From: Phycisphaeraceae bacterium
Lineage (GTDB): Bacteria > Planctomycetota > Phycisphaerae > Phycisphaerales > SM1A02
Direction of reading: 5' to 3'
NCBI GenBank assembly: GCA_015709595.1
Contig: CP054178.1
Span: 1,488,001-1,552,000, forward strand
Length of the DNA: 64,000 nt
Part shown: positions 121-38,408 of the stretch, in pieces
Layout of the letters: the number at the start of each line of letters is the position of its first letter
How positions within the stretch are numbered: the stretch's first letter is position 1
Notes under the pieces: generated by a model
What the model was told of the DNA's origin: nothing
Databases searched by the model: none
What the model saw: the letters and a program-made list of their open reading frames with translations, nothing else
Translations under genes and position numbers: made by a program

Positions 121-1682
121 GTCCGCCCATCGCCAAGCACGCTTCAACACCATCGGGACACCGGCGCCTCAACCCCGGCGAGCCGCGATCACTGTCCAAC
201 GATCCGCAACCCCTCAACAGCGAGCCGCGACCGTCGGGGGGCGGTCCGACCGCCGCGCGCACGATCCGCATCGCCCTCCTCGGCTGCGGGACGGTGGGGG
301 GTCGCGTCGCCGCCACGTTGCGCGACGAGCACGATCGGCTGCTCGCCCGCACCGGGCTGGATCTGCGCCTGGTGCGGATTCTGGTCCGCAAGGCGGGCCC
401 TCGCCGATCCATCTTTGGTGGGATCGTCACGGAGCGGTTCGAGGAGATTCTGGAGCAGCGCCCCGACGTGGTCATCGAGGCCCTCGGCGGGGCCGAGCCC
501 GCCGCCACGTTCATCGAGCGGCTGCTCGAAGCGGGCGTCCACGTTGTCTCGGCCAACAAGACGGCGATCGCCCACCACGGCCCGCGCCTGCGCGCGGCGG
601 CGACGCGGGGCGGGGTCATCCTGGCGCACGAGGCGGCGGTCGCCTCGGCCATCCCGGTGCTGGCCGCCCTGCGGCACCTGCGGGGCGATGAGATTCAGTC
701 GGTGCGAGGCATCGTGAACGGCTCGACCAACTTCATCCTGGATCGCATGACCGAAGCCGGGCTGTCGCGCGACGACGCCCTGCGCGAGGCCCGCCGCAGG
801 GGGCTGGTCGAGCCGGACCCCAGCGCGGACGTGTCGGGCCGCGACGCGGCGGAGAAACTCTGCCTGCTCGCCCACGCCGCGGGCTTCGGCGAGTTCACGC
901 CCGTGGATGTGGACCGCGCGGGCATCGAGGCGATCACCGCGGAGGATGTGCTCGCCGCGCGCCGCCACGGCTACGCCATCAAACTGGTGGCCGAGGCGGT
1001 TCGCACGCCCCACGGCGTGACGCTGCGCGTCGGCCCCACGCTGCTGCCGCGCGATCATCGGCTGGCCCGCGTGCGGCTGGAGGAGAACGGCGTCGAGATC
1101 AACGCCCTGCTGGGGGGCGAGATCTTCCTGCAAGGCGCCGGAGCCGGACCGGAGCCCACCACCAGCGCGCTGCTGGGCGATGTGCTTCGCGTGCTGCGCG
1201 CCGGCAGCGGGCCGGAACTGACGCTGACGGGGCACGAGCCGGACGCTCCGCCACGATCGCGCGATCACGCCAGCCGCGACGCCGGCTTGAGCAACGACGC
1301 CAAAACGAGCCGCGACCATGAGGGAGCGGTTTCCCCGTCCCTCGCCTCGCGCTCCCACGTCCCCCCCGCCATCCCGCGCATCCACCTCGTACGTCTGGCC
1401 TGCGACCGACGCGCCATCACCCCCGCGCGTGTGCTGGAACCCTTCCGCGAGCACGGCGTGGGCTTCCGCGAGATCGACGTGACGCCGCGCAGCGCCATCC
1501 TGCTGACGCACGCGGTGCCTGTCGATCGGATCGAGCGGGCGGTCGCGGCCATCGAGCGCGTGACGCCGGCGGCGTCGCTGGTCGTGCCCGAGGCGTCGTG
1601 CGCCCGCCGCCGCCCGTCGAGCGCGGGAGAGACCGGCGTGGAGATTGTCGCGTCCGCGGGAACGGCGTCGATGGCGGGGTGA
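117..1682 (+). CDS. hom: Homoserine dehydrogenase with C-terminal ACT-like domain
   Basis: NAD(P)-dependent reduction of aspartate semialdehyde to homoserine, the branch point to threonine and methionine. The protein is 521 aa. The nucleotide-binding motif GCGTVGG is at about residues 56-62, the catalytic-lysine segment SANKTAIA at about 143-150, and GIVNGSTNFIL at about 199. The last ~100 residues (IPRIHLVRLACDRR onward) look like the regulatory ACT domain. The start is the ATG overlapping the previous stop (ATGA). Two parts look repeat-derived: the ~48-residue extension before the Rossmann fold, and a linker of about 40 residues before the ACT domain (nt ~1250-1370) holding a copy of the GAGCCGCGACC repeat. 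Family members normally start close to the GxGxxG motif, so both are additions. The gene converges on the next one with 7 bp between stops. Confidence 0.93.
   Translation: MSPPIAKHASTPSGHRRLNPGEPRSLSNDPQPLNSEPRPSGGGPTAARTIRIALLGCGTVGGRVAATLRDEHDRLLARTGLDLRLVRILVRKAGPRRSIFGGIVTERFEEILEQRPDVVIEALGGAEPAATFIERLLEAGVHVVSANKTAIAHHGPRLRAAATRGGVILAHEAAVASAIPVLAALRHLRGDEIQSVRGIVNGSTNFILDRMTEAGLSRDDALREARRRGLVEPDPSADVSGRDAAEKLCLLAHAAGFGEFTPVDVDRAGIEAITAEDVLAARRHGYAIKLVAEAVRTPHGVTLRVGPTLLPRDHRLARVRLEENGVEINALLGGEIFLQGAGAGPEPTTSALLGDVLRVLRAGSGPELTLTGHEPDAPPRSRDHASRDAGLSNDAKTSRDHEGAVSPSLASRSHVPPAIPRIHLVRLACDRRAITPARVLEPFREHGVGFREIDVTPRSAILLTHAVPVDRIERAVAAIERVTPAASLVVPEASCARRRPSSAGETGVEIVASAGTASMAG
180..235 (+). 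repeat. Two partial copies of the GAGCCGCGACC repeat in the hom N-terminal extension
   Basis: GCGAGCCGCGATCACTG begins near 178 and GAGCCGCGACCGTC lies at 222-235. Both match the first half of the 23-bp repeat seen complete at 1307, 5698 and 38278. They encode part of the non-conserved N-terminal extension of Hom. Confidence 0.5.
1307..1329 (+). repeat. Dispersed 23-bp repeat (GAGCCGCGACC...GGGAGCGG), copy within hom
   Basis: The sequence reads GAGCCGCGACCATGAGGGAG then CGG. It differs from the copy at 5698-5720 at one position. It lies in frame in the linker before the Hom ACT domain and is translated as SRDHEGA. Confidence 0.75.
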
Positions 1683-1689
1683 TGGGCGA

Positions 1690-4467
1690 CTAACGCACCA
1701 TCACCTGCACCCAGTCGATATCAGACTCGAAGTTGAAAGCGAACACCGGCGCCACCACCACGTGACGGATTGAGACTTCGATCGCGCCATCATGGCGGAC
1801 AAAGCGAGATGCCTGGATGTTCTCCATGGTGTGAAGTCGGTCGAACGGACCGATGACAGATGTGCCGATCGTGACGAAGGTTCCTGTATCCCAGTTACGC
1901 AACTGCACGCGCTGAGTGCCGCTGGGTTGATTGACACGGGAAACGACATTGACTCCCAGGGTTTCCGGGGAGGCCGCTGCCGTCATCCCACGAACATGCA
2001 GGATCATGGAATGAAGATCGGTGAACGTCTGGCCGTACCCGGAACGGACTCGCAGCCATCCGGACGAGACGTGTCGAATGCTGTTGACATCCCCGAAGAG
2101 GTGGGTGCCGCGCGTGATTTCGAGAGCGTTCAGCAACGCCTCCTCGAAGGTCGGACAGCCCACCCACGCCGCGATGTAGTTCGACGGCGTGGCGCCGACC
2201 GACCAGAACCCGCCTCCGAGATACAGCGCCGGGCGACGATCGGCGCCAAACACAAACGGCCGCGCCACGTGGATGGGATGCGTGCCCAGGCCATTGTTGG
2301 GATCGCGTGTATAGACCGAGCGCCACGATTGCCCGTTCCAGCGCCAGACGGCCTTCTCGCCCAGCAGAAAGAGCGCGGGTCGGCTGTCAATCCCGTCATC
2401 GAAGGTCGCCATGGTTGACCAGTCGTCGCCCGACTGCAGGTTGACGCCCACGATTCGCCAGCCGCCGTCGCGATATCGCGCGAAGTCCTGGACGTTGAGT
2501 CCACCGACGCCTGAGAAGTCTCCCAGCACGTAGAGTTCCGGTCCGCCACCATCATCGTGAACGTGCATCGCTCGGACCGTGCCCGATGTCCAGCCCGGCA
2601 CGGGATGCCAAGCGAGGCCATCCCAGCGCGCAAGCCCCGCCGCAGCGACGCCGCCGATCGAGCTGAACTGCCCCCCCGCATAGAGCATCGGGCCTTCACC
2701 ATCGTCAAAGACAATCATGCTGTTGATCGTCCCGGATGTCGGTAGTCCGGTTCCCAGCGAAGACCACTGCTGTCCATCCCACGCTGCCACGCGCCCCGGC
2801 AATGGTGTCGAGCCGGACTTGGTGAACGTGCCGGTGACCACCAGTCGCTCTCCCGCGCCGTGCCCGTCGTCGTAGACGGTCATGGCGCGAACGATCCCGC
2901 TCCCGCCCTGTGATGTCTGGAGTCCCTCGCCCACAGAGTGCCATGCCGCGCCGTCCCAACGCGCGATCCCTTGCACGGAAGTCTGCCCCGACGCGGTGAA
3001 ACCGCCTCCAGCGTATATGAGCGTCCCAAGCCCGTCCTGGAATCCAGCCAATGCGTTGACCGATGCGTTGAGGCCGTCGCCCAGCGGACGCCACGAAGAG
3101 CCATCCCACCGGCCTACGTTGGCCAATGGGACGAAACCAGCAGCGTCGAACTGACCGCCAACGTAGAGTGCCGTCTCACCAGGCACGACATCGGGCCCAA
3201 CCGCCATGGCCCGGACCACCAAGTTGCTCCCTGTGATTCCCTCACCCGGCGTGGTGAATCCGCTCCATCCGACGCCTTCTTCAAAGAGCGCGATGTTCGG
3301 CGTGACCACGTTCCCGGCGCGGGAAAATGATCCGCAGACGACGAGCATCGCGGCGTCATCTCCATCGGGCGTGAGGACGAGGGTACTCACCACTCCTCGA
3401 GTCGAGTTGAGTCCCGGGTCAATCCATTCTCCTTGACGGAGCAGCATCAGGGTTCTCGGTCCGAATCCCTGCACGGTGAACGCGCCACTGACCACCAGAT
3501 CAAAAGAGTCCTTCACGCCGTTGGGACGGAGATTCAGGCGAAGGTCTGACACACCACTGAGTCGCATGTCCACGGGCGTCCACGCGCTATCCCGGTACAT
3601 GGCGAGAAAACGGGTCTGCACCCCCTCGATATGAGTAAACAGCCCGCTTGCGTAGAGCGAGGTCCGCCCTTGCTCGTCGGTGTACGCCCTGACGCCGCGC
3701 ACCGGTCCGTTCGCTTGTCCAATGACCGACCAACCGGATCCATCCCAGCGGCTGACAAAGCCGGCGCTCGAAGTTCCCTGTCCGACGATCAAACACGGTC
3801 CTTGACCCCCGACATTCCTTGTCACTTCCATGTCATAGACGATGAATCCCGGGTTGCCCGTTGAATGCCAACTCTGTCCATCCCATCGTGCGACGAAGCG
3901 CATCGAGACACCGCCGACGCGAACAAAGTCACCCCCAATGTACAGCCCGGGCGCCGACCCCTCGGCCATGTGTCGAATCACGTTGATCTGCCCGGCGCCT
4001 TCATCGACACCGGCACCGACCGGCTCCCATCGAACGCCATCCCACCGCGCGATGCCGTTGGCCGGCACCCCGTTCACCTGCGCGAAGGCACCTCCCACGA
4101 ACAAGCCCTGCCCCCGACCATCGTTCAGGTCGGCCACTTCAATCGCACGCAGGTACGCGCTCGAACTCTGAGGGATCGAGGCCCGCACGACACCGATCGT
4201 GACCCACTGGTCGCCCTCCCAGCGCGCCACGCCCCAACTCACGCCATCGGCATGAGGGACCAGGCCAATCACATGCAGGCGAGGCCCGGCCCCGAGCCCA
4301 TCATCGAACATGACGGCCTGTTCGACGAATGGCAACCCCGGCGCCCCAAAACCATCGGCCCAATGCGGGGCACAGTCTTCTTGCGCCGCAAGAGCCGAAC
4401 CCATCACCGCCGCCACCATGAGACCGAGAACGAGACAAAGATGCCTGATTCGCCAATGCTGCGCCAT
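1690..4467 (-). CDS. Large secreted protein of repeated beta-propeller-like units
   Basis: About 925 aa from the chosen ATG at 4467. That ATG gives a clean signal peptide (MAQHWRIRHLCLVLGL...ALAAQ) and has a G-rich ribosome site (GGGGGC) upstream. The longer open frame to 4602 has no signal-like start. The body is a run of similar units of ~50-55 residues, each with a variant of ARWDG..W..(V/L)G.G...G and a D.G.G..LY(V/A)GG.F element (for example IARWDGAAWHSVGEGL, LYAGGQFSSIGG). This pattern resembles Kelch-like or FG-GAP-like propellers of planctomycete exported proteins. The final ~130 residues are non-repetitive. Function unknown; an extracellular or cell-surface role is inferred from the signal peptide. 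It lies alone between hom and TDO. Confidence 0.85.
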   Translation of the reverse strand: MAQHWRIRHLCLVLGLMVAAVMGSALAAQEDCAPHWADGFGAPGLPFVEQAVMFDDGLGAGPRLHVIGLVPHADGVSWGVARWEGDQWVTIGVVRASIPQSSSAYLRAIEVADLNDGRGQGLFVGGAFAQVNGVPANGIARWDGVRWEPVGAGVDEGAGQINVIRHMAEGSAPGLYIGGDFVRVGGVSMRFVARWDGQSWHSTGNPGFIVYDMEVTRNVGGQGPCLIVGQGTSSAGFVSRWDGSGWSVIGQANGPVRGVRAYTDEQGRTSLYASGLFTHIEGVQTRFLAMYRDSAWTPVDMRLSGVSDLRLNLRPNGVKDSFDLVVSGAFTVQGFGPRTLMLLRQGEWIDPGLNSTRGVVSTLVLTPDGDDAAMLVVCGSFSRAGNVVTPNIALFEEGVGWSGFTTPGEGITGSNLVVRAMAVGPDVVPGETALYVGGQFDAAGFVPLANVGRWDGSSWRPLGDGLNASVNALAGFQDGLGTLIYAGGGFTASGQTSVQGIARWDGAAWHSVGEGLQTSQGGSGIVRAMTVYDDGHGAGERLVVTGTFTKSGSTPLPGRVAAWDGQQWSSLGTGLPTSGTINSMIVFDDGEGPMLYAGGQFSSIGGVAAAGLARWDGLAWHPVPGWTSGTVRAMHVHDDGGGPELYVLGDFSGVGGLNVQDFARYRDGGWRIVGVNLQSGDDWSTMATFDDGIDSRPALFLLGEKAVWRWNGQSWRSVYTRDPNNGLGTHPIHVARPFVFGADRRPALYLGGGFWSVGATPSNYIAAWVGCPTFEEALLNALEITRGTHLFGDVNSIRHVSSGWLRVRSGYGQTFTDLHSMILHVRGMTAAASPETLGVNVVSRVNQPSGTQRVQLRNWDTGTFVTIGTSVIGPFDRLHTMENIQASRFVRHDGAIEVSIRHVVVAPVFAFNFESDIDWVQVMVR

Positions 4468-4657
4468 GATGCGCCCCCTCTGGCCACAAGATGACCGTGG
4501 ACCTAACTGACCTGCGACCATCGTCATACCTCGGCGATGGTTGAATACGCAAGTCACATTCTGACAAGACTTTCCAGAGAGTTCAATGGGCAAGCCAAGC
4601 ATTTTTGCTAAAATACTTGCGGCAATCTGGCGGCGCTGAAGGTGCCGACCATGCCCC

Positions 4658-5440
4658 CTACAACCGATGCCGCACCGCCCACAGGTCGGGGAAGACCGGC
4701 AGGAAGAGCGACTTCTTGAGGAACTCCACGCCCGGCGAGCCGCCCGTGCCGTGCTTGGCGCCGATGGTGCGCTCCACCACCTTCACGTGGCGGTAGCGCC
4801 ATTCCTGGAATCCCTCGTCGAAGTCGGTCATCAGCTCGAAGAGGATGGCCACGTCGGGCCGCGTGCGGTAGAGGTGGTAGACCGCCTCCTGCACCGCCTC
4901 GTCCGGCTCGGCGGGGGCGTCCGCCGGGCGCTCGCGGAGGCGCTTGGGCACGGCGGCGCCCAGCGTCTCCAGGTAGTCGTACCAGTGGTCCACCACGCTG
5001 CGTTCGGTCAGCCGCCGCATCACCGCGGCATGGCCGGGGTCGCCCTCCTTCAGGTACTTCACCACGCCCGGGCGCTTGTAGCCCAGCAGGAACTCGATTT
5101 CGCGGAACTGCGCGGACTGGAAGCCGGAGGATGTCTCCAGCCGGTCGCGGAAACTGGTGAACGACATGGGCGTCATGGTCTCGAGGATGTCGAGCTGGCC
5201 CACCAGCGTCTTCATGATGGTGCGGCAGCGCTGCCAGGTGGCGATGGCGCCGTACAGGTCGCCCGCGCTGAAGTCGCGTTTGATCTTGTCCAGTTCGTGC
5301 AGCAGCAGCTTGAACCACAGCTCGTAGGTCTGGTGAATCACGATGAAGAGCATTTCATCGTGCTCGGGCGGGCTGGAGCGCGGCTTCTGCAGCGACAGCA
5401 GGGCGGGAATGTCCAGGTACGTCGAATAGGTGAGCGGCAT
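4658..5440 (-). CDS. kynA: Tryptophan 2,3-dioxygenase (haem)
   Basis: Opens the indole ring of L-tryptophan to N-formylkynurenine, the first step of the kynurenine pathway. At 260 aa it has the usual bacterial length. Visible family landmarks are DEMLFIVIHQTYELWFK with the distal His at 36, SSGFQSAQFREIEFLLG with the substrate-binding Arg at 113, and FQEWRYRHVKVVERTIG with the proximal haem His at about 218, then KHGTGGSPG. The 5' 374 bases plus the upstream region are repeated at 8869-9417 with only three mismatches, so this complete copy lies at one end of a direct repeat. Kynureninase and an ACMSD-type enzyme are encoded at 22.3-24.7 kb. Confidence 0.95.
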   Translation of the reverse strand: MPLTYSTYLDIPALLSLQKPRSSPPEHDEMLFIVIHQTYELWFKLLLHELDKIKRDFSAGDLYGAIATWQRCRTIMKTLVGQLDILETMTPMSFTSFRDRLETSSGFQSAQFREIEFLLGYKRPGVVKYLKEGDPGHAAVMRRLTERSVVDHWYDYLETLGAAVPKRLRERPADAPAEPDEAVQEAVYHLYRTRPDVAILFELMTDFDEGFQEWRYRHVKVVERTIGAKHGTGGSPGVEFLKKSLFLPVFPDLWAVRHRL

Positions 5441-5615
5441 CGATCAAGTGTATGGGCCGCCGCTCGAGCGCAACGAACGTGGCGCGGGGTCGCCGCGCCA
5501 CGGGGCGTCATCGAGTTTCACGACGCACGAGCCGCCGACCGGGCGACGATCACCGTCGGCGCCGTCGCCGACCGAGCACCATCACCCCCGCGGCGGCGAA
5601 GAGCAGCCCCGCGCC
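5067..5615. repeat. 549-bp direct repeat, left copy
   Basis: Matches 8869-9417 at a constant offset of 3802 bases with three mismatches (5098, 5180 and 5279). It contains the first 374 bases of the TDO gene, the intergenic space, and the last ~22 codons of a PEP-CTERM gene. The match stops abruptly at both ends. Together the two copies bracket a 3253-bp segment (5616-8868). Confidence 0.95.
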
Positions 5616-5640
5616 CGGGGTGGGAGCCGCCGTCACTGAT
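5550..5640 (-). pseudogene. C-terminal remnant of a PEP-CTERM protein gene
   Basis: Read on the minus strand this encodes APTPGAGLLFAAAGVMVLG followed by a poly-Arg tail and a stop. It is the same tail as the intact gene at 9352-10038. Only the part inside the 549-bp repeat (to 5615) is identical, and the rest of the gene is missing. It marks the break point left by the cassette between TDO and its former neighbour. Confidence 0.8.
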
Positions 5641-5697
5641 CAGCGTGCCGGCGAGATCCTACCAAGCGGGGCGTCGATGGTCAGATGGATCTGCGAC

Positions 5698-5720
5698 GAG
5701 CCGCGACCGTGAGGGAGCGG
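5698..5720 (+). repeat. Dispersed 23-bp repeat (GAGCCGCGACC...GGGAGCGG), intergenic copy
   Basis: Starts GAGCCGCGACCGTGAGGGAG. It is the reference copy of the family also found at 1307 (+) and 38278 (-). It lies just inside the left end of the inserted cassette, upstream of the HTH gene. Confidence 0.75.
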
Positions 5721-5850
5721 GCCGCGGCGCCCGCCCGTGGATCATGGGGGCGAGGGGAGCACTTTTTCTCAGAAGTTTGTCACGCTCGGGGTTGGCGAAC
5801 GCCTTCATGAGGAGGGAAGCGCGATGGGTTCGCGCGAACCATATGCGACC

Positions 5851-5869
5851 GGGAGGCGAACAGACCATG
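5851..5869 (+). promoter_or_regulatory. Ribosome binding site and ATG of the HTH ORF
   Basis: GGGAGG at 5851-5856 lies ten bases before the ATG at 5867. A second, stronger-looking site, GAGGAGGG at 5809-5816 before the ATG at 5823, opens another frame that runs into the same heptanucleotide tract but is not in frame with the HTH domain at the present repeat number. Confidence 0.5.
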
Positions 5870-7585
5870 CGGGAGACAATCCGTGGAAAGCCATCAGCCG
5901 ACAGCCGACAGCCGACAGCCGACAGCCGACAGCCGACAGCCGATCCTACCACATCTGGGGCCATGGCATCACTGCACGCCCCACGTTCAGTGGTTTCCGC
6001 ACCGGGTGCCGTGGAGCGTCTTGGCCGCCTCGGTCTTTCGGCCCGGCAGGCGGAAGTGGTGTTGCTGCTGGCGGAGGGAATGACGGAGGAGGCGGCCGCG
6101 GATCGGCTGTGCGTCTCGCCGCATACGGTGCATGACCACGCCAAGCACATCTACCGGCTCCTGGGGGTCCACAGCCGGGTGGAACTGGCGGGAAGGATCT
6201 TCAGGATTTTGGCGGAAACCCCTGAGGAGGGGATTGCACATCGAGATCGCTCCAGTACGTTTCTCATCGTGGTGATCACACTCTGTGACATCGTCGAGAC
6301 TACATCTGGAGAGAACATAATGTCACCAAGAACAACATGCCATTCAGCGCACGATCTGGCCCCGAGGTTTCGGTGCCTCGAGTATCCTGCCACCAATCGG
6401 AACTCTCTCTCTGGCGCAAGAGCTACCAATCGCCCGACGTTCGAGACTCTCATCGCTGTCGTCGCCTCGGCAGCTGTGATCGTGCTCGCACTGATGTCAG
6501 GTTCTGCGCATGCACAACATGGAGCCAATGGCACACCTCAGCAGCCAAATGGACAGAACGGCATGTCTGGGACCGATCCCGAGAATCCCATCCGACCCCA
6601 CGGCGGAAATGGCGGACATGGGTGGGGCGGCGGCAACGGAGGGCACGGTGGAACTGGTGCGAATGCGTCTTCATCGACCAGTTGGGATGAACCTGGAAGG
6701 GGTGGGTATGGTGGTGACAGTGGCGAGAGCGGCGGATTCGGAGGACAAGGCGGTGATGGAGGCGGCTGGTCCGGCTACCAGGAAAGTTCCTACACCGATG
6801 GTGCCGATGGTGGGAACGGAGGGCGTGGTTATTCCGGCGGTGGAGATGGCGGCTGGGGTGGGAAAGGACAATCAAGACAGTCCGGAATGGGAGGGGATGG
6901 TGGCAAAGGCGGATTTGGTGGGGATGTCCTTGATGCCAGCACCAATGCCGGTCATGGGGGTGTGGGTGGTGGTGGCGGTGACGGAGGCGACAGCAGTGAT
7001 TCGATGGGCGGGTGTGGCGGCGATGCAGGCTTCGGGGGAGATGGCGGCCCAGGAGGTGGAAATGGTGGTGACGGAGGCCTGGGCGGTAAGGGTGGCAACG
7101 GCGCATGTCCAACTCTTGATAATCCTTTCGGTGCGGATGGCGGCGACGGTGGGATCGGCGGAGCTGGCGGAAATGCAACAATCACTTGGATCGGGGGAAA
7201 CGGTGGTCGTGGCGGGGATGGCGGCGACGGTGTTGTGCCGGGGTACGGTATGGTTGGGGGGTACGGGGGAACTCCAGATGGTCTTAATGGTAGTGATGGG
7301 GATGACGGGAACGTTCTCGACTGCTTCCCAGTTGGAGGCGGTGGAACGATCTGCCGCCTTGACATCAGACAACTCTTCACCGATGGACAAAAGATCTGGG
7401 GAGCAACAGCATGTCGCGTTTCATTCGTTCCATCGTCACGGCGGCTTCTCTGGTCGTCTTCGCTCCCTGCGCAGCCCAACAGCTGGCTCCCATCCACGAG
7501 ACAGAACTTGTGCGGTATCTCGCCATCATCTGCCCCTCAGATGAAGAGGCCATTCTCATTCAGACGCTCTTCAGGGATTACCTGA
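5867..7585 (+). CDS. LuxR-type HTH / membrane segment / glycine-rich protein in one reading frame
   Basis: One frame is open for 572 codons. Residues 9-28 are coded by a heptanucleotide tandem repeat (ADSRQPT twice). Residues ~55-115 are a GerE/LuxR-type helix-turn-helix (LSARQAEVVLLLAEGMTEEA then VSPHTVHDHAKHIYRLLGV). A hydrophobic stretch (TLIAVVASAAVIVLALMS) at ~194-211 ends in SAHAQ, a signal-peptidase-like site. From ~217 to ~495 the sequence is GG-x-GG repeats. A good ribosome site precedes Met152 (ATG 6320), so this may be two genes, an HTH regulator and a secreted glycine-rich protein, with the first lacking its own stop. The frame overruns the next gene by 175 bases; the paralogue at 28356 stops right after GGGGL. 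Function unknown. Confidence 0.7.
   Translation: MRETIRGKPSADSRQPTADSRQPTADPTTSGAMASLHAPRSVVSAPGAVERLGRLGLSARQAEVVLLLAEGMTEEAAADRLCVSPHTVHDHAKHIYRLLGVHSRVELAGRIFRILAETPEEGIAHRDRSSTFLIVVITLCDIVETTSGENIMSPRTTCHSAHDLAPRFRCLEYPATNRNSLSGARATNRPTFETLIAVVASAAVIVLALMSGSAHAQHGANGTPQQPNGQNGMSGTDPENPIRPHGGNGGHGWGGGNGGHGGTGANASSSTSWDEPGRGGYGGDSGESGGFGGQGGDGGGWSGYQESSYTDGADGGNGGRGYSGGGDGGWGGKGQSRQSGMGGDGGKGGFGGDVLDASTNAGHGGVGGGGGDGGDSSDSMGGCGGDAGFGGDGGPGGGNGGDGGLGGKGGNGACPTLDNPFGADGGDGGIGGAGGNATITWIGGNGGRGGDGGDGVVPGYGMVGGYGGTPDGLNGSDGDDGNVLDCFPVGGGGTICRLDIRQLFTDGQKIWGATACRVSFVPSSRRLLWSSSLPAQPNSWLPSTRQNLCGISPSSAPQMKRPFSFRRSSGIT
5895..5943. repeat. Heptanucleotide tandem repeat, seven units of CAGCCGA
   Basis: Seven perfect 7-bp units. 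Seven is not a multiple of three, so gain or loss of a unit changes the reading frame. The tract lies 28 bases after the putative ATG of the HTH ORF (5867), as in phase-variable genes. Confidence 0.9.
6308..6322 (+). promoter_or_regulatory. Internal ribosome site and ATG for the glycine-rich protein
   Basis: GGAGAG at 6308-6313 is followed six bases later by ATG at 6320. It is in frame with the HTH domain upstream and would give a 421-residue protein starting MSPRTTCHSAHDL with an internal signal-anchor-like segment. It supports independent translation of the glycine-rich part. Confidence 0.6.
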
Positions 7586-8802
7586 ATCGCTTTGATGCGT
7601 TGATCCGGGCTGACTTGGAGGAATACTCGGTCCAGTTGCGGTCTGCGGAGAACAGGCAGGCCGGGGGCAGGCGGCCGCGCGAGAGAGCGCAGGACGAGGC
7701 GGAACAGGACGTGATGCCTCTTCACGAACGGTATCGGCGGATCTACGAAGCACAAACAGACCTTGTCCGCCGACTCGAAGCGCTTGACAGTTGGTTGTTC
7801 GATGAGATCGAGAGTCTGTTGGACCTGTCTCTCCAAGAACGGGTTCGGCGTGCGCGGCACGCTCGACTCCGTTTCATGTTTCGTGACGAGCAGGCCGGTC
7901 CTCTTGAGTTGCGAGTCGATCTGGTCGAAATCGCGCGCCCGTTCGCTCAGAGTGAGACAGAGCTCCACAACAAAATACTCGACGCCTATCTAGATGAATA
8001 TGAGCGGCGCTACATCGATGCCCTCAGGCACCTGAACGATGTACGCCGACAGTGGCGCGTGGTATGGCACGAAGGAAATGGCTACGAAGAGATGATCAAC
8101 TCCGAGCGCATGGCGGCTCGCCTGGAAACCCGGACGGCCCGCGAAGAACTGATTGATCAATGGACCGCTGCGCGCGATCGCCTCCACGATCGGGCCGGGC
8201 GCATGGCGGTCGCGCCGTATTATCGACTGCGTGACCTGCTGCATGACGGGGTGATCGAGATTCGCAATCGATTGGGCGAAACGGATCGAACTGTCTTCGA
8301 AGCGATGTTCAACCGGACAGCATACCCCACGATTTACCCAGACCCAGGATCAGCCGAGTCCCTGTACGAAATCGCACGGGCACTTCCGGACTTATCGGAA
8401 TCTCAGCGCACGGTGATCGTGGAGCTGCGTGATCGCTATCGTGTTGAACACGACGAGTTGAGCCGCCGCATGGCAGTGTCCGAGTTGGAGCGCACGCTCG
8501 CTGGTGTTCGTAACGAGCCCAACTCATCGAAACGCAACGCTGATTACTGGTCTGAGTTGTTCGCCCTCGGTGAGAGCCGAGAAGCCCTCAACGAACGTCA
8601 GTCGGTTTCCATCCGCGCGATCCTGACGCCTGAACAGTCCGCCGGACTGCCGGTGTGGAATTTCAAAGCGAACCCGCCCGCGCGCCCGTGGGATCCGGCG
8701 GATGCCCATCGACGGGAGCGTGAACGCCGCGAGCAGGAACGTCGTGATCGAGCGCGACCGATGCAGGATCGCTCGGCAGGGGCGGACCATCTGTCCCCAT
8801 GA
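7411..8802 (+). CDS. Secreted helical protein with C-terminal LTxxQ-like motif, cassette copy 1
   Basis: 463 aa with a signal peptide (MSRFIRSIVTAASLVVFAPCAAQ) and a clear ribosome site (GGGGAG at 7398-7403, seven bases before ATG). The body is long charged helices without membrane segments. Near the end is ILTPEQSAGLPVWNFKANPP followed by ARPWD. The LTPEQ motif resembles the LTxxQ motif of Spy/CpxP-like periplasmic proteins, though the overall length is far greater. It is paralogous to 29203-30486: shared blocks include AYPxxYPDP, a REALN block and LPxWxFxxNPPxRPWD. Both copies directly follow a glycine-rich gene, so the two products probably act together, most likely in the periplasm. No known function. 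Confidence 0.85.
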   Translation: MSRFIRSIVTAASLVVFAPCAAQQLAPIHETELVRYLAIICPSDEEAILIQTLFRDYLNRFDALIRADLEEYSVQLRSAENRQAGGRRPRERAQDEAEQDVMPLHERYRRIYEAQTDLVRRLEALDSWLFDEIESLLDLSLQERVRRARHARLRFMFRDEQAGPLELRVDLVEIARPFAQSETELHNKILDAYLDEYERRYIDALRHLNDVRRQWRVVWHEGNGYEEMINSERMAARLETRTAREELIDQWTAARDRLHDRAGRMAVAPYYRLRDLLHDGVIEIRNRLGETDRTVFEAMFNRTAYPTIYPDPGSAESLYEIARALPDLSESQRTVIVELRDRYRVEHDELSRRMAVSELERTLAGVRNEPNSSKRNADYWSELFALGESREALNERQSVSIRAILTPEQSAGLPVWNFKANPPARPWDPADAHRRERERREQERRDRARPMQDRSAGADHLSP

Positions 8803-8868
8803 TGCGCGGGTCGGTGCTTGACGCTCCGAGGCATGCGCAACTCATGCCCATCCACGTGATCGCGCCCG

Positions 8869-9242
8869 CCCGGGCGCTTGTAGCCCAGCAGGAACTCGAG
8901 TTCGCGGAACTGCGCGGACTGGAAGCCGGAGGATGTCTCCAGCCGGTCGCGGAAACTGGTGAACGACATGGGCGTCATGGTTTCGAGGATGTCGAGCTGG
9001 CCCACCAGCGTCTTCATGATGGTGCGGCAGCGCTGCCAGGTGGCGATGGCGCCGTACAGGTCGCCCGCGCTGAAGTCGCGCTTGATCTTGTCCAGTTCGT
9101 GCAGCAGCAGCTTGAACCACAGCTCGTAGGTCTGGTGAATCACGATGAAGAGCATTTCATCGTGCTCGGGCGGGCTGGAGCGCGGCTTCTGCAGCGACAG
9201 CAGGGCGGGAATGTCCAGGTACGTCGAATAGGTGAGCGGCAT
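8869..9242 (-). pseudogene. 5' fragment of tryptophan 2,3-dioxygenase
   Basis: Encodes the first ~124 residues of TDO, 99% identical to the complete gene at 4658-5440 (one amino-acid change, FREIEF to FRELEF). It retains the distal His and the Arg of the active site but lacks the proximal haem His and the C-terminal half. After the repeat ends the frame runs on into unrelated sequence and antisense to the preceding gene. A functional enzyme is very unlikely. The start codon and upstream region are intact, so a truncated peptide could still be made. Confidence 0.9.
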
Positions 9243-9417
9243 CGATCAAGTGTATGGGCCGCCGCTCGAGCGCAACGAACGTGGCGCGGGGTCGCCGCGC
9301 CACGGGGCGTCATCGAGTTTCACGACGCACGAGCCGCCGACCGGGCGACGATCACCGTCGGCGCCGTCGCCGACCGAGCACCATCACCCCCGCGGCGGCG
9401 AAGAGCAGCCCCGCGCC
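8869..9417. repeat. 549-bp direct repeat, right copy
   Basis: Partner of 5067-5615 (three mismatches). At its right end the PEP-CTERM gene continues intact; at its left end the TDO sequence stops after the codons for FLLGYKRPG. Confidence 0.95.
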
Positions 9418-10038
9418 GGGCGCGGGAATCGACGCCTGTTCGACGGCGATCGAGCGGAAGGTGAAGTCGCCGGCGTTGCTCGGACCGGGGTTGCCCGAGG
9501 CGAGCGTGAGCGTGGTGATGGGACCGGCGAAGATGCTGCTGCCGCTGATCGTCCACGCCCCGCCCTGGCCCTGGGTGGCGGGCGAGTCGTTCTGCAGCGT
9601 GCCGAAGCCGTTCCATGAGCCGCTCGTCGCGCCGCTGGCGATCAGCAGGTGCGAGCCGAGATCGGTGGTGATGAGCGCCGATTCATGCACCGTGTCGCCG
9701 TAGTTGCCCGCGGTGTAGAGCGCGCCCAGTGACAGCGAGATGACGTTGACCGGCTGCGAGAACGAGAATCGGATGAACTCGAGGTTGTCGATCTCGCCGG
9801 CCACGCTTCCGCCGCCCACGCCCACGCCGCTGAACCCGCCGACGGTCTTGCCCTTGAAGGCGCCGTTGAAGGATTCGACGGTGACGTTGACCCCCGACAG
9901 GGTGAAGCTGGCGGAGGTCTGCCCGTCGGTCAGCTGCCACGAGTTGAGAATGTCCGCGCCGGCGGCGCCGCAGCAGGCCGCCGCCACCGCGCCGGCGATC
10001 GAGGTGCTGGTGAGGATTCGACGCTTCTGGGGATGCAT
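9352..10038 (-). CDS. PEP-CTERM-type exported protein
   Basis: 228 aa from the ATG at 10038, which has an excellent ribosome site (AAGGAG, seven bases upstream); the longer frame to 10230 is rejected. It has a signal peptide (MHPQKRRILTSTSIAGAVAAACCGAAGA in two stretches), a beta-rich middle, and the sorting tail PAPGAGLLFAAAGVMVLG followed by Arg residues. Such tails direct proteins to exosortase-dependent anchoring at the cell surface. It was probably the direct upstream neighbour of TDO on the same strand before the cassette arrived, since both copies of the 549-bp repeat span the TDO start and this gene's end. The role of the beta domain is not recognised. Confidence 0.88.
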   Translation of the reverse strand: MHPQKRRILTSTSIAGAVAAACCGAAGADILNSWQLTDGQTSASFTLSGVNVTVESFNGAFKGKTVGGFSGVGVGGGSVAGEIDNLEFIRFSFSQPVNVISLSLGALYTAGNYGDTVHESALITTDLGSHLLIASGATSGSWNGFGTLQNDSPATQGQGGAWTISGSSIFAGPITTLTLASGNPGPSNAGDFTFRSIAVEQASIPAPGAGLLFAAAGVMVLGRRRRRR

Positions 10039-10384
10039 CCGTGTGCTCCTTGTCGCGGCGGTCGCCGCGACGGACGTTGGCCCGACCGCGATCCGTCGCG
10101 GGGGCGAGTCCTTCAACGGTCGAATTCGGTTGACGTGAACGCCAAGGCCGGCGGCGACAGGGGATCGCTTCGGCTCCGCGTACAGGGAAAATGTTGCCCA
10201 GTCGGTCGCACCAGTTGCGCGCGGCGGCAAGCATGCCAGGCGCCTGCCGAGTCGTTACCAGACGTTGCGGATCAGGGGCGGGGGCTTCCGCGCTGCCGCA
10301 GGATGGAACCGCAGGCGAGACGCCCGCGCCGTCGTGGAGGTCACGGGAGGGGACGTCTGCACGACTGATCTGGAGGGAAGTTGC
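10039..10384. other. Intergenic region between nusG and the PEP-CTERM gene
   Basis: About 345 bases. It holds the PEP-CTERM ribosome site at its left edge and one short dispersed palindrome, GCAGGCGAGACGCCCGCGC, at 10311-10329. No gene or clear terminator was seen. The expected rplK does not follow nusG. Confidence 0.5.
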
Positions 10385-11020
10385 TCACCCCTCCGCCGGG
10401 CTGATCTGCCAGTATTCCAGGTCGATGGGCGCCTGGCGGCCGAAGATGGTGACGAGCACCTTGACGCGCTGCTTCTCGGGCATCAGTTCGTCCACGGTGC
10501 CGTCGTAGCCCACGAAGGGGCCGTCGTTGATCTTGACGTGGTCGCCCTTGCGGAACTCCATCTTGACGGTGGGCGTCTCGTCGGGTCGGCGCGAGTCGAA
10601 GAGCATCTTCTCGACCTCTTCGGCCCGCATGGGGGTGGGTCGTCCGGCGGTGCCGACGAAGTCGCCCACGCCGGTGGTTTCCTTGATGAGGAAGAACACG
10701 TCCTGGGGGATGCGCCCGTCATCCTCGAGTTTCATTTCCACGAAGACGTAGCCGGGATAGAGCTTGGTTTCGGTGATCTTGACCTTGCCGGCTTTGAGTG
10801 TCTTGGTCTTCTCGGTGGGCACCATGATGCGCCCCACGCGATGCTGCAGCCCCTCGATCTCGACCTTGCGCAGCAGCGTCTCGCGGACCGAGTTCTCCTT
10901 GTTCGAGGCCACGCGCAGCACGAACCAGTTCATGCCGTCGCGGTACATCGGCAGGTCGGCGGCGGGGTCGAACTTCTCGACCGTCGGGTCACCCTTCTTG
11001 GTTTCGGTCTGGTTGGTCAC
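10385..11020 (-). CDS. nusG: Transcription termination/antitermination protein NusG
   Basis: 211 aa. Binds RNA polymerase and couples it to Rho or the ribosome. The NGN domain starts at MNWFVLRVASNKENSVRETL (about residue 30) and includes LYPGYVFVEM and GVGDFVGTAGRPTPM. The C-terminal KOW motif is FRKGDHVKINDGPFVGYDGTV. The N-terminal ~28 residues are an extra charged leader. It lies downstream of secE (66-bp gap) on the same strand, the conserved order. The ribosomal genes rplK-rplA that normally follow are absent. Confidence 0.96.
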   Translation of the reverse strand: MTNQTETKKGDPTVEKFDPAADLPMYRDGMNWFVLRVASNKENSVRETLLRKVEIEGLQHRVGRIMVPTEKTKTLKAGKVKITETKLYPGYVFVEMKLEDDGRIPQDVFFLIKETTGVGDFVGTAGRPTPMRAEEVEKMLFDSRRPDETPTVKMEFRKGDHVKINDGPFVGYDGTVDELMPEKQRVKVLVTIFGRQAPIDLEYWQISPAEG

Positions 11021-11086
11021 GGCGGGTTCCCCTGCGAAACGGGTGAGTGCAACAGCGGACGGATGCGGCCAGCGGGATACGGAACG

Positions 11087-11500
11087 CTACGCGGCGTCGA
11101 TGACCCGCAGAACGCGGAAGAGCGGGCTGAAAATCAGGTAGTCGATCACGAACAGGACGACCGCCATCACCGCGGTCAGGCCGATGACGACCATGGTCAT
11201 GCCCGTGATCTCACGCCGCGTGGACCAGTTGACCTTCTTCATCTCCCCCTCGGTGGCGATCATGAAGTCCACCGTCCGGGGGCGGCGCCCGATGAAGTGG
11301 TACACGAACAGTCCGACGATCGCAGTCACTACGATGACCGTGCCGTACTGGATGTACACCGGCTGCACCCCGCTGACGCGGATGGCGGCCAGTTGCTCGC
11401 CCAGCCACAGCCCGCCCATGAAGCCCACCAGGCAGAACGAGGCGGCGGACACCACGCGGGTCCAGTACCCCTGACCCGGCTTGTGAATGGCGAATCCCAT
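11087..11500 (-). CDS. secE: Preprotein translocase subunit SecE (long form)
   Basis: 137 aa from the ATG at 11500 (GGAG eight bases upstream). SecE clamps SecY in the Sec translocon. The C-terminal half has the family core, FMIATEGEMKKVNWSTRREI followed by a membrane helix. Two extra membrane segments precede it (SFCLVGFMGGLWLG and YGTVIVVTAIVGLFVYHF), so three are predicted instead of the single helix of minimal SecE. It sits between tRNA-Trp and nusG as in many bacteria. Confidence 0.93.
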   Translation of the reverse strand: MGFAIHKPGQGYWTRVVSAASFCLVGFMGGLWLGEQLAAIRVSGVQPVYIQYGTVIVVTAIVGLFVYHFIGRRPRTVDFMIATEGEMKKVNWSTRREITGMTMVVIGLTAVMAVVLFVIDYLIFSPLFRVLRVIDAA

Positions 11501-11560: not shown

Positions 11561-11633
<73 letters not shown>

Positions 11634-28355: not shown

Positions 28356-29177
28356 ATGGCATTCTCAGATTCAGAAGAGAGGTACGACACGATCTGTGGA
28401 AAGACCGCGACAATCCTTCTCGTTGTCAGGGCTTTGGTGACTGCCGCCGGAGCGAGTGGGCAGGGTTATCCACCCGGTTACACGTTTGGTGCCGCCGGAG
28501 ACGAAGACCATCCCGATGGATATCACGGATATCCAGGAGCTCACGCATCAAACACCAACCGACCTGATGGGGGGCGTGGTGGCGATGGCTGGACTTCGAA
28601 CGATCAATCGGTCTCCGGCGATGGTGGTCCAGGCGGACACGGCGCCAACACGTGGGATGACGTCTCGTTTGGCCGCGCCGGTCATGGTGGGAATGGTGGC
28701 CATAGTGGTACTGCGGGCGGCGTAGGGGGAAGAGGGGGCGACGGCGGATGGGCATCGACCGCCCTGCCCGGACAGACGGCAACATTTGCCGGCGGTGATG
28801 GTGGACGTGGTGGTCTCGGGTGCGAGTTGGGAGGTCGAGGTGGTGATGGCGGGAATGGCGGCCCGAACCCCTACGGTGGAACTGGGGGTGAGGGAGGCGA
28901 GGGCGGCGCTGGGGGAGATCTGTGGCCGAATGAAGTCGGAATGGGTGGACCGGGTGGAAACGGAGGCGACGGCGGGAAAGGGGGAGATTCGGTCAATGGC
29001 AACGGAGCGAATGGCGGGAGGGGCGGGAAGGGCGGCGATGGAGACGGTCCGGGTCAGGGTGGCGCCGGGGGTGAACGCGGAGTGTCGGAAAGCAACGGCG
29101 TGAACGGTTCGCCCGGAGCCGCCGGCGCCAACGGGATCGTCCTGTGGTGCAATCCGGCTGGGGGCGGAGGGCTTTAG
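28356..29177 (+). CDS. Glycine-rich exported protein, cassette copy 2
   Basis: 273 aa. A short N-terminus with a hydrophobic stretch (TATILLVVRALVTAAGASGQG) may act as signal peptide. From residue ~45 onward the protein is GG-x-GG repeats with Asp, Asn and few large residues, ending NGIVLWCNPAGGGGL. It is paralogous to the glycine-rich part of 5867-7585 (shared end: NGSxGxxGxxxVLxCxPxGGGG). It resembles PE_PGRS or collagen-like low-complexity proteins only in composition. The LTxxQ-like partner follows after 25 bases. No HTH domain is attached here, unlike copy 1; the sigma factor next door may take the regulatory place. Confidence 0.8.
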   Translation: MAFSDSEERYDTICGKTATILLVVRALVTAAGASGQGYPPGYTFGAAGDEDHPDGYHGYPGAHASNTNRPDGGRGGDGWTSNDQSVSGDGGPGGHGANTWDDVSFGRAGHGGNGGHSGTAGGVGGRGGDGGWASTALPGQTATFAGGDGGRGGLGCELGGRGGDGGNGGPNPYGGTGGEGGEGGAGGDLWPNEVGMGGPGGNGGDGGKGGDSVNGNGANGGRGGKGGDGDGPGQGGAGGERGVSESNGVNGSPGAAGANGIVLWCNPAGGGGL

Positions 29178-29202
29178 TCACGCGACAGCGTCTGGAACTG
29201 CA

Positions 29203-30486
29203 ATGAAGTCTGTCACGCCGTTGAACATCCTTCTTCTGGTTCTGATGGCGGCAAGCCATCAGGAACCGGACACGATCGATTCACCATGGGACCGGATTCC
29301 CACGGTGATCAGTGAGTCCCAGTTCCTCCGTGCTTCCAAGCGTCTGCATCTGACCAACGAACAGGAGTTGATTGCTCGTCTTCTGTACGACACGTACGTG
29401 AAGGAGCGCCGCGAGCGCTTTCAGAACGAAATCCGCGAGTTTCATCGCGAGGAGGCGGATGCCATCCGCCGCACCAATCTGCCCGGCGTTCCGGTGTCCC
29501 GGATTCGGGAAGACTTCCAGCAACTGCGTGACCGCATGGGCGAGATTCGACGGCGCGTGCTGATACATGAACAGGAATTTCTTTCTCACTTTCAGGCCGT
29601 GCTTCACGAGGACCAGCATGCGCGGTGGCCGCTGGTCGTTCGAGGACTTGCCCGTGCGCGCCTGACGGCCTTCATGTCGCAGTTTCCGGAGGGACGTATT
29701 GATCTCGTCGCGCTGGGTGAGGGATTCGCGATCGAAGATGTTCCATGGATCGACTTCGTGAACGAGTACGAGCCGCTCTACCTCAGCGCGCTGCGGAAGG
29801 CCACGAACGCCGCGCATGAGTTTGAGTGGAATCTCCTTGAGATTCGCGAGATTCAACAGCGCCTGCAGCAGGAGGAGCCGGACAGCTTCAGAGCACACCA
29901 ATTTCGAGAGCGCATCCGCGCGCTTCAAGAGCGATTCGGGCGTGCCCGTGTCACCGCGTCAGAGCAACTGGCTGAAGTGAATCGCGAATGGATCGAGCGA
30001 CTGATCGCTCGGGTGGATGATCCTCTCAAGCCGGTCATTCGGGAACGGTACCTGGAGGCCGCCTACCCAGAGGTGTATCCCGACCCGACGGCCGCAACTC
30101 GACTCTTTGATGTGATTGAAGCGATGGATGACCTCTCTGACGGCCAGCGGGAAGTGATGAGCATGCTTCGCCAAAACTGGAGCAATCATCATGCAGTTCT
30201 GTGTGAACGGATGGTGGAGACGATTCACTTTCGATACTGGTCCATGTATGCCGGCAAGCCCAGCCCCATTGGAAACGATCAGGAGCTGTGGGAGGCCCTG
30301 AAGTCGATCGGTTATGAGCGAGAAGCCCTCAACCAGGCCCAGATTGGTCAAGTGCGGCCGCACCTGACGGGGGATCAAATCGCCCGTTTGCCTCAATGGG
30401 ATTTCGTGAAGAACCCCCCGCCGCGGCCGTGGGACCGGGACTATGACCGGCTCTGGCGGCAACGCACCGAGCGGCGGGATCAATAG
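29203..30486 (+). CDS. Secreted helical protein with LTxxQ-like motif, cassette copy 2
   Basis: 427 aa with a signal peptide (MKSVTPLNILLLVLMAASHQ). Long charged helices follow, including two blocks with repeated RIRxxLQERFGRA-like patterns. The C-terminus has REALNQAQIGQVRPHLTGDQ, then LPQWDFVKNPPPRPWD. The whole aligns with 7411-8802 (AYPEVYPDP versus AYPTIYPDP). The LTGDQ matches the LTxxQ signature of Spy-like proteins. It sits 25 bases after the glycine-rich gene, so both are one transcript. Function unknown. Confidence 0.85.
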   Translation: MKSVTPLNILLLVLMAASHQEPDTIDSPWDRIPTVISESQFLRASKRLHLTNEQELIARLLYDTYVKERRERFQNEIREFHREEADAIRRTNLPGVPVSRIREDFQQLRDRMGEIRRRVLIHEQEFLSHFQAVLHEDQHARWPLVVRGLARARLTAFMSQFPEGRIDLVALGEGFAIEDVPWIDFVNEYEPLYLSALRKATNAAHEFEWNLLEIREIQQRLQQEEPDSFRAHQFRERIRALQERFGRARVTASEQLAEVNREWIERLIARVDDPLKPVIRERYLEAAYPEVYPDPTAATRLFDVIEAMDDLSDGQREVMSMLRQNWSNHHAVLCERMVETIHFRYWSMYAGKPSPIGNDQELWEALKSIGYEREALNQAQIGQVRPHLTGDQIARLPQWDFVKNPPPRPWDRDYDRLWRQRTERRDQ

Positions 30487-38141: not shown

Positions 38142-38408
38142 GCGCGTCTCCTCGTCTCGTCGCCGGAAGGCGTGACTGTAGCGCGGGGCGGATGCGGGTC
38201 GCGGCGGTCCAGCGGTGGACAGTGCAATCGCAATCTTGCTGGGGGGAAGGTGACGGTTAGTGGAGCGAGCGCCCCGCCCGCTCCCTGACGGTCGCGGCTC
38301 GCTTTGAAAATCATGTGATCGCCCGGCCGTGGCGGCTCAACTCATCCGCGAAGCGGCATCACCGGTACACTTGCTCAGGGAACCGTTCAACGTCCCGAGG
38401 GAACACCC
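38142..38408. other. Divergent intergenic region between fabD and the propeller gene
   Basis: About 267 bases. It contains one full copy of the 23-bp GAGCCGCGACC repeat on the minus strand (38278-38300). Nothing else recognised. Confidence 0.5.
38278..38300 (-). repeat. Dispersed 23-bp repeat, intergenic copy
   Basis: On the minus strand it begins GAGCCGCGACCGTCAGGGAG. It differs by one base from the copy at 5698. Confidence 0.75.

Follow-up and report, generated by a model that had tools for sequence, protein, structure and literature searches.

Campbell-type integration by a single crossover places an insert between direct repeats of the region of homology and preserves the genes of the host, while template switching, or microhomology-mediated break-induced replication, leaves short shared words at its joins and a step back that yields a duplication. 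Transposons typically duplicate 2–14 bp of their target site. A further route is documented in the S. pneumoniae clone R3022, for which the account of that clone describes a transformed cassette inserted additively beside its locus, with a small duplication of 3,276 bp and without flanking repeats; in the same account the mechanism of additive insertion is also called unclear (PMC3784515). The locus described here lies in a 64-kb window, the whole stretch of DNA analysed, from the chromosome of a Phycisphaeraceae bacterium. As R3022 is described, the two cases are alike in that a cassette appears to have been added near an intact locus with a local direct duplication and without pre-existing flanking repeats, and they differ in that R3022 received a laboratory PCR cassette for that locus and duplicated 3,276 bp, whereas here natural DNA from a putative donor accompanies a duplication of 551 bp (PMC3784515). 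Like a Campbell integrant, the insert lies between direct repeats and the host genes are kept; unlike one, it contains no recognised vector functions, and no circular form was seen. The short shared words at its joins and a step back giving a duplication would also fit template switching, although no donor template was found for the insert.

Base-by-base comparison at an offset of 3802 established that the insert is enclosed by two 551-bp copies of the junction between a gene for tryptophan 2,3-dioxygenase (TDO) and a PEP-CTERM-like gene (Table 1). The copies are 99.5% identical, with three mismatches at 5098, 5180, and 5279 (left-copy coordinates), and their limits are sharp, with a mismatch at 5064 immediately outside and further mismatches from 5616 on. 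The initial annotation had described repeats at 5067–5615 and 8869–9417 with this offset, this number of mismatches, and an abrupt end to the match, all of which was confirmed, the true copies being two bases longer at the left. Two of the three differences are synonymous and one exchanges Ile and Leu; an attempt to polarize them with the TDO loci of 19 relatives was abandoned, because the codons there are too variable to tell which copy changed. The three mismatches mean either that some time has passed since the event or that a slightly different strain supplied the DNA. The window gave no further direct repeat of at least 60 bp (seed 20), and in a scan of 472 kb, about 12% of the chromosome (at least 85% identity, 70 bp, E 1e-10), this pair was the only direct repeat longer than 100 bp with copies less than 20 kb apart. 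The same scan returned one tandem repeat of exactly 100 bp and one 497-bp pair separated by 187 kb.

Table 1. Features of the TDO/PEP-CTERM-like locus and of a second gene pair, in window coordinates.
Feature	Position	Strand	Evidence or remark
Complete tryptophan 2,3-dioxygenase (TDO) gene	4658..5440	-	PF03301 1e-55; TIGR03036 1.9e-73
Left copy of duplicated junction	5065..5615		551 bp; offset comparison, repeat search
CGCCCGGG at left-copy start	5065..5072	+	
PEP-CTERM-like gene remnant	5550..5615	-	Last 66 bp
CGCCCGGG across left copy/insert junction	5612..5619	+	
Inserted segment	5616..8866	+	3251 bp
REP-like palindromic 23-mer	5698..5720	+	Exact copy of a chromosome-wide repeat
Promoter-like leader and LuxR-type HTH block	5750..6236	+	87% identical to G000:C1:1681738-1682234
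7-mer CAGCCGA, seven times	5895..5943	+	
LuxR/GerE HTH reading	5963..6223	+	PF00196 6e-11
Glycine-rich ORF, probably secreted	6320..7585	+	3' end overlaps next ORF; three chromosomal paralogues
Predicted helical protein, 463 aa, probably exported	7411..8802	+	Sub-threshold LTXXQ match
Right copy of duplicated junction	8867..9417		551 bp, 3 mismatches; offset comparison
CGCCCGGG at insert/right copy junction	8867..8874	+	Duplicate of the one at 5065
Truncated TDO	8867..9242	-	Initial 376 bp, some 125 codons, running on into insert sequence
Complete PEP-CTERM-like gene, start codon uncertain	9352..10230	-	Sub-threshold motif matches; homologues in the family's other genera
Glycine-rich ORF of second pair	28356..29177	+	No comparable flanking repeats
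Helical partner in second pair	29203..30486	+	E 2e-25 to the insert's protein

The duplication left each host gene complete once. TDO is complete at the left copy, where only the final 66 bp of the PEP-CTERM-like gene are present; the latter gene is complete at the right copy, where the initial 376 bp of TDO open a chimeric ORF that still matches PF03301 (1.9e-35). When the flanks were fused through one copy, both genes were intact, so that the offset comparison and the joined flanks bear out the layout of complete and truncated genes proposed earlier. Because either gene survives whole just once and fusing the flanks restores the junction, the TDO–PEP order most likely preceded the insert, as had also been proposed, with the duplication arriving alongside it; that two genes are left intact by one-copy joining is most simply read as an insertion that duplicated the junction. 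Of the names given to these genes, TDO was upheld by the Pfam and NCBIfam matches, its TIGR03036 score of 247 bits lying under the equivalog cut-off of 390.7 (NCBIfam), and PEP-CTERM was not, as the motif scored under both curated cut-offs (TIGR02595, 14.9 vs. 16 bits, NCBIfam; PF07589, 11.9 vs. 20.7, Pfam); that name therefore stands on a weak motif match and is given here as "PEP-CTERM-like."

Sixty relatives, none of the same genus, were searched with window positions 4600–10200, four candidates being scored per genome, and the nearest TDO among their listed loci was 74% identical. The PEP-CTERM-like gene stood beside TDO at 0 of 19 loci (12 of them with only about 1.5 kb of flank) and at none of the best 80 TDO loci, compared with flanks of up to 10 kb. 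Conversely, no TDO or NusG match occurred in the 1.5-kb flanks of 11 relatives' PEP loci (12 PEP loci in all).

The insert has an atypical composition: its GC content is 61.3% (measured on 5616–8868) vs. 67.6% for the window, and its tetranucleotide distance exceeds that of all 122 sliding windows. The GC3 of its glycine-rich ORF is 0.51. The copy of its leader/HTH block lies 188 kb away in the same chromosome, and alignment of the two indicates that the HTH frame continues without a stop into the following ORF, owing to a C run that lacks one base relative to the paralogue. Two weak PADLOC matches of CARF models to the HTH (E 2e-4 and 5e-4) were taken as generic HTH similarity. The REP-like repeat of the insert is also present in other families of the order. 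The helical protein had been called LTxxQ-like, a label with weaker support than the PEP-CTERM name, since it scored 11.1 bits against PF07813 (LTXXQ/Spy-CpxP), for which the cut-off is 24.3; one paralogue reached 15.6. An AlphaFold2 model from two sequences was too poor for use (mean pLDDT 49.5), and no similar solved structure was found at E up to 1. Among the own-genome DNA matches listed (40 of 181 candidates scored), none fell in insert bases 1–80, 622–3007, or 3079–3253. A candidate donor gene at the left edge (5623–5709, 29 residues) was set aside as unconvincing, its best other match in 61 genomes having E 0.03, and no RNA family was detected in 4500–10400 at E up to 0.5.

The same chromosome holds three more glycine-rich/helical pairs, making four with that of the insert. 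These pairs, together with the leader/HTH copy, make the cassette less foreign than the initial annotation had implied. Direct repeats comparable to the 551-bp pair were found around none of the three other pairs; a 41-nt direct repeat spanning one of them (L051; 80%, 10.9 kb apart) was discounted as a member of a simple-sequence family. Near the helical loci of relatives, no glycine-rich ORF was seen (0 of 29), with the retrieved DNA covering the helical frame to its upstream limit in just 13 of the 29. A truncated copy of the leader is present at G000:1588913. One could speculate that leader-HTH/glycine-rich/helical operons are lineage-specific surface-protein cassettes spreading within the chromosome by neighbour-sparing, junction-duplicating insertions, the present copy being the one young enough to have retained its duplication and the older pairs and the G000:1588913 copy worn relics, but this broader proposal is a long shot. 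The insert looks like a member of a resident gene family that was rearranged once, and not like a new kind of mobile element.

No machinery for self-movement was recognisable in the insert. Its two large ORFs and ten further ORFs gave no match over cut-off to families of mobility, replication, mobilisation, or integration functions, and no transposase gene was found, the LuxR-type HTH giving sub-cut-off matches only (HTH_Tnp_ISL3, 14.8 vs. 27.4 bits; IS630 transposase, 16.6 vs. 100). Neither terminal inverted repeats nor flanking IS copies were found at the insert. Inverted repeats of at least 30 bp were absent from 3500–11500; a laxer scan of 5600–8900 gave 20 pairs of 12–23 nt, of which the one nearest both ends (5727–5749 and 8795–8817, 23 nt, 78%) is set back from them by 111 and 49 bp, and a mid-insert pair is at least as good. 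At 551 bp, the duplication is not the short target-site duplication of a transposon. The nearest tRNA gene, at 11561, is too distant to be an attachment site. The DNA of the insert had no match in plasmid and phage collections, and the helical protein had none there or, as six exact peptide patterns, in viral contigs.

The explanation favoured, with moderate confidence, is a single additive insertion of linear, near-native DNA guided by microhomology, whether through a template switch or through transformation. Linear DNA native to this organism or to one closely related to it, with one member of the resident family (promoter-like leader, LuxR-type HTH, secreted glycine-rich protein, and helical partner), would have entered at the TDO/PEP-CTERM-like junction. 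From left to right, host sequence would give way to the insert after 66 bp of the 3' end of the PEP-CTERM-like gene, and the insert would give way to host sequence that resumes 551 bp further back, inside TDO. This step back would create the duplication and spare both host genes. The microhomologies CGCCCGGG and CCGGGCGC would probably have guided the joining, in the manner of template switching or of additive integration by transforming DNA.

CGCCCGGG occurs five times on the plus strand of the window and six times on the minus strand, and three of the five plus-strand copies are at junctions, one of these having been produced by the duplication. The copy start shares the 8-bp CCGGGCGC with the outer right end, and likewise 8 bp with the left join. 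Such sharing is reached by 1% of random point pairs and by 3.7% of GC-rich points, and because the junctions are so GC-rich, the 8-bp words are just mildly unusual. A Ku gene, which Ku-dependent joining of the ends of a staggered break would call for, was not found, PF02735 having no match in the genome in a search whose control was positive in B. subtilis only. The ComEC domain has one match in the genome, which is no proof of competence, since the E. coli control was also positive. In the overall weighing, the additive insertion was credited with the completeness of the genes, the 87% block copy, the paralogous pairs, the REP-like copy, and the lack of mobility families over cut-off and of plasmid or phage matches, and further with the sharing of CGCCCGGG and 8-bp words at the joins, the absence of Ku, the presence of ComEC, and the S. 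pneumoniae precedent. Held against it were the three mismatches, which a Campbell or a transformation route explains equally, the lack of a donor match for most of the insert DNA among the matches listed, and the atypical composition, which also fits a foreign origin.

Among the alternatives, the one that survives best, although unlikely, is the Campbell-type integration put forward in the initial annotation. In the version weighed here, a circle carrying the insert and a 551-bp TDO/PEP piece from a sister strain would have entered by one crossover, leaving the homology as direct repeats. The geometry and the intact genes of that proposal stand: direct repeats of one homologous segment bound the insert, excision would restore the genes, this homology-insert-homology order is the single-crossover pattern, and the mismatches are compatible with a donor of a slightly different strain. 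The circle itself was not borne out by the searches for replication, mobilisation, and integrase families or for plasmid, phage, and viral-contig matches. It must, moreover, first have acquired exactly this chromosomal piece, for which the matches listed elsewhere in the genome (40 of 124 candidates scored) comprised only one of 33 bp at 88%.

It is improbable that the arrangement is an assembly artefact, with the insert coming from elsewhere or from a strain assembled along with this one and a graph error having produced the duplicated junction. The arrangement is known from one assembly, which may derive from a metagenome, as most of the relatives found are MAGs. Nevertheless, the assembly consists of a single 3.84-Mb contig with 99.1% completeness and 0.7% contamination, the insert has repeats and paralogues in common with the rest of the chromosome, and the copies differ at three positions and are therefore not one sequence written twice. 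Poorer still are the prospects of a larger tandem duplication spanning the junction and a nearby former place of the insert, with one copy then mostly deleted. Such a history would likewise give a junction-insert-junction order, but the insert must formerly have been near the locus, no second copy of it appeared among the matches listed in the genome, and the 412 kb around the locus showed no other remnant of a larger duplication. The least credible alternative has two steps, tandem duplication of the junction through the 8-bp CCGGGCGC, which the start of the copy has in common with the outer right end, and later entry of the insert at the duplication joint. Within duplicated DNA totalling about 1,100 bp, an independent insertion would have had to strike this joint to within a few bases, and no short target duplication is evident there.

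Should the arrangement be real in the cell, the additive insertion favoured here would be a clear natural case of a chromosome gaining several genes with neither neighbour broken. The 551-bp repeats would then predict a measurable rate of excision, which could separate a recent, unstable gain from a selected one. The presence of four glycine-rich/helical pairs in one planctomycete chromosome could also interest research on the surface proteins of planctomycetes.

The junction between the tryptophan 2,3-dioxygenase gene (TDO) and its neighbor, a PEP-CTERM-like gene named from sub-cut-off motif matches, occurs as two 551-bp direct repeats of 99.5% identity. Offset comparison and a repeat search revealed three differences between the copies and loss of similarity immediately beyond either edge, and base-by-base comparison showed the repeat coordinates in the initial annotation to be correct to within two bases. 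The complete TDO has its 5' part in the left copy, which continues through a 109-bp spacer without differences between copies and closes with the final 66 bp of the PEP-CTERM-like gene. In the right copy TDO is cut down to its first 376 bp; the spacer follows, and then the terminal part of a PEP-CTERM-like gene that is complete. Rejoining the flanks around one copy leaves both genes intact, an arrangement that would fit insertion of the intervening segment with duplication of the junction, as initially proposed. This arrangement is unusual for the chromosome: among direct repeats longer than 100 bp in 472 kb, this is the only one whose copies lie within 20 kb of each other. The same 472 kb also contain one 100-bp tandem repeat exactly at the threshold and one 497-bp pair separated by 187 kb.

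Coordinates of features at the duplicated junction and related loci (unprefixed, window; G000:C1, same chromosome; L205, stretch of the same genome)
Feature	Coordinates	Strand	Remarks
Complete TDO	4658-5440	minus	PF03301, 1e-55
Left repeat copy	5065-5615
Insert	5616-8866
Glycine-rich ORF	6320-7585		downstream of 487-bp block
Helical protein	7411-8802		463 residues, predicted helical
Right repeat copy	8867-9417
Complete PEP-CTERM-like gene	9352-10230		end within right copy
REP-like repeat copies	5698-5720, 1307-1329, 38278-38300; L205 1248, 1819, 1914
Second gene pair	28356-30486
Third leader copy and truncated gene	G000:C1:1588913-1589666		stretches L192, L204
ORF with Y1_Tnp match	L205 1-3204		G000:C1 around 3835495-3838698

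The first 134 bp of the insert include a REP-like 23-mer in exact copy. They precede a 487-bp block with a promoter-like leader, seven CAGCCGA repeats and a LuxR-type helix-turn-helix (HTH) reading; a block at a distance of 188 kb shares 87% identity with it. In that distant copy the HTH frame ends in a stop close to the block end. Comparison of 6210-6330 with the paralogous stretch (L032 6210-6235) revealed that the C run of the insert is one base shorter, which removes the stop and leaves the HTH frame open into the glycine-rich ORF; this opening may be genuine and fuse the two readings, or may stem from slippage or from an error in sequencing. The helical protein scored far under the cut-off as LTXXQ (11.1 vs 24.3 bits), and its structure model was poor (mean pLDDT 49.5). 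The first bases of the insert (5623-5709) read as a 29-residue C-terminal-like peptide whose stop falls within the REP-like repeat. It may derive from the 3' end of a donor-site gene; a search with this peptide returned no convincing relative.

Neither the two large ORFs of the insert nor ten further ORFs matched a mobility family over cut-off, and sub-threshold transposase matches were confined to the HTH. Repeat scans found no inverted repeats marking the insert ends. The helical protein had no match among 72,556 plasmid and 50,697 phage records, six of its exact peptide patterns found no relative in viral contigs, and the insert DNA matched nothing in plasmids or phages. Ku had no match in the genome (the control search was positive in B. 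subtilis), and ComEC had one. At the junctions, the word CGCCCGGG, present five times on the plus and six times on the minus strand in 64 kb, has plus-strand occurrences at 5065, 5612 and 8867, of which the one at 8867 duplicates that at 5065, and CCGGGCGC is common to the copy start and the outer right end. Because an 8-bp word is shared by chance at 1% of random point pairs and 3.7% of GC-rich points, and more than one junction pair was inspected, these words are no more than suggestive of microhomology. On these grounds we prefer a single additive insertion guided by microhomology, either through template switching or through the integration of transforming DNA. A comparable case is documented in PMC3784515: in a pneumococcal clone, a cassette introduced by transformation was inserted near its locus together with a duplication of 3,276 bp that had no flanking repeats; the authors state there that the mechanism of that additive insertion is unclear. 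Single-crossover (Campbell) integration of a circle would account for the geometry but lacks independent support, and we consider it unlikely. Misassembly is less probable still; the three positions at which the copies differ and the single-contig genome of 99.1% completeness weigh against it. The feature is real in the sequence, a somewhat uncommon and tidy example of an ordinary kind of event. We infer the empty ancestral site, the direction of change and the donor only indirectly, since none of the 60 relatives drawn belongs to the same genus, the nearest TDO among the matches listed is 74% identical, and no PEP-CTERM-like gene was found beside TDO in the relatives' loci examined. At the three mismatched sites, the TDO codons of 19 relatives are too variable to assign the changes to either copy.

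Across 472 kb of chromosome there are 29 occurrences, with up to three mismatches, of the REP-like imperfect palindrome GAGCCGCGACCGTGAGGGAGCGG, and near-identical copies are present in other families of the order. A literature text search with fragments of this sequence yielded no paper; REPs in Planctomycetes as such are already known (PMC3733652). The genome's only Y1_Tnp (RAYT-like transposase) match among those listed lies in a stop-free ORF of 1068 codons, in frame (residues 501-563) between two stretches of tRNA-synt_1 (3e-112). It scored 25 bits against a cut-off of 23 and is flanked on both sides by REP-like copies. The ORF is that of a class I tRNA synthetase, which we take to be valyl-type. 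The Y1_Tnp match is a candidate REP/RAYT insertion that keeps the frame of an essential gene, which, if true, would be unusual.

The glycine-rich ORF and the helical-protein gene form a recurrent pair. Elsewhere in the genome the helical protein has four matches, of which three have E values from 3e-48 to 2e-25 and the fourth 3e-5; the glycine-rich ORF adjoins the insert's gene and the three stronger paralogues (4/4) and is absent near the weak match. The second pair, in the window, adjoins an ECF-like sigma factor gene and a TPR Ser/Thr kinase gene. A weak relative or better occurs in 65 of 121 family genomes, own included (up to 13 candidates scored per genome); among the scored candidates from other genomes, the best is 29% identical (E 6e-13). 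None of 29 helical loci in relatives had the glycine-rich ORF nearby, with only 13 of these stretches extending upstream as far as the helical frame itself. Third-position GC is 0.51 to 0.76 in the pair genes and 0.87 to 0.94 in TDO, the PEP-CTERM-like gene, NusG, SecE, EF-Tu, the kinase and FabF; low values are no proof of foreign origin, because other window genes are also low (1690-4602, 0.71; the ECF-like gene, 0.78).

The three pairs other than that of the insert are without comparable flanking repeats. A third leader copy (78 bp, 88%, at G000:1588913), containing TTTGTCAC, lies immediately upstream of a 5'-truncated helical-protein gene whose relative is the helical protein of the operon bearing the 87% HTH copy. 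This region is apparently the deletion remnant of a similar operon, and the leader directly preceding a truncated relative suggests that such operons arise and decay within the chromosome. The gene family carried is probably of greater interest than the duplication itself.
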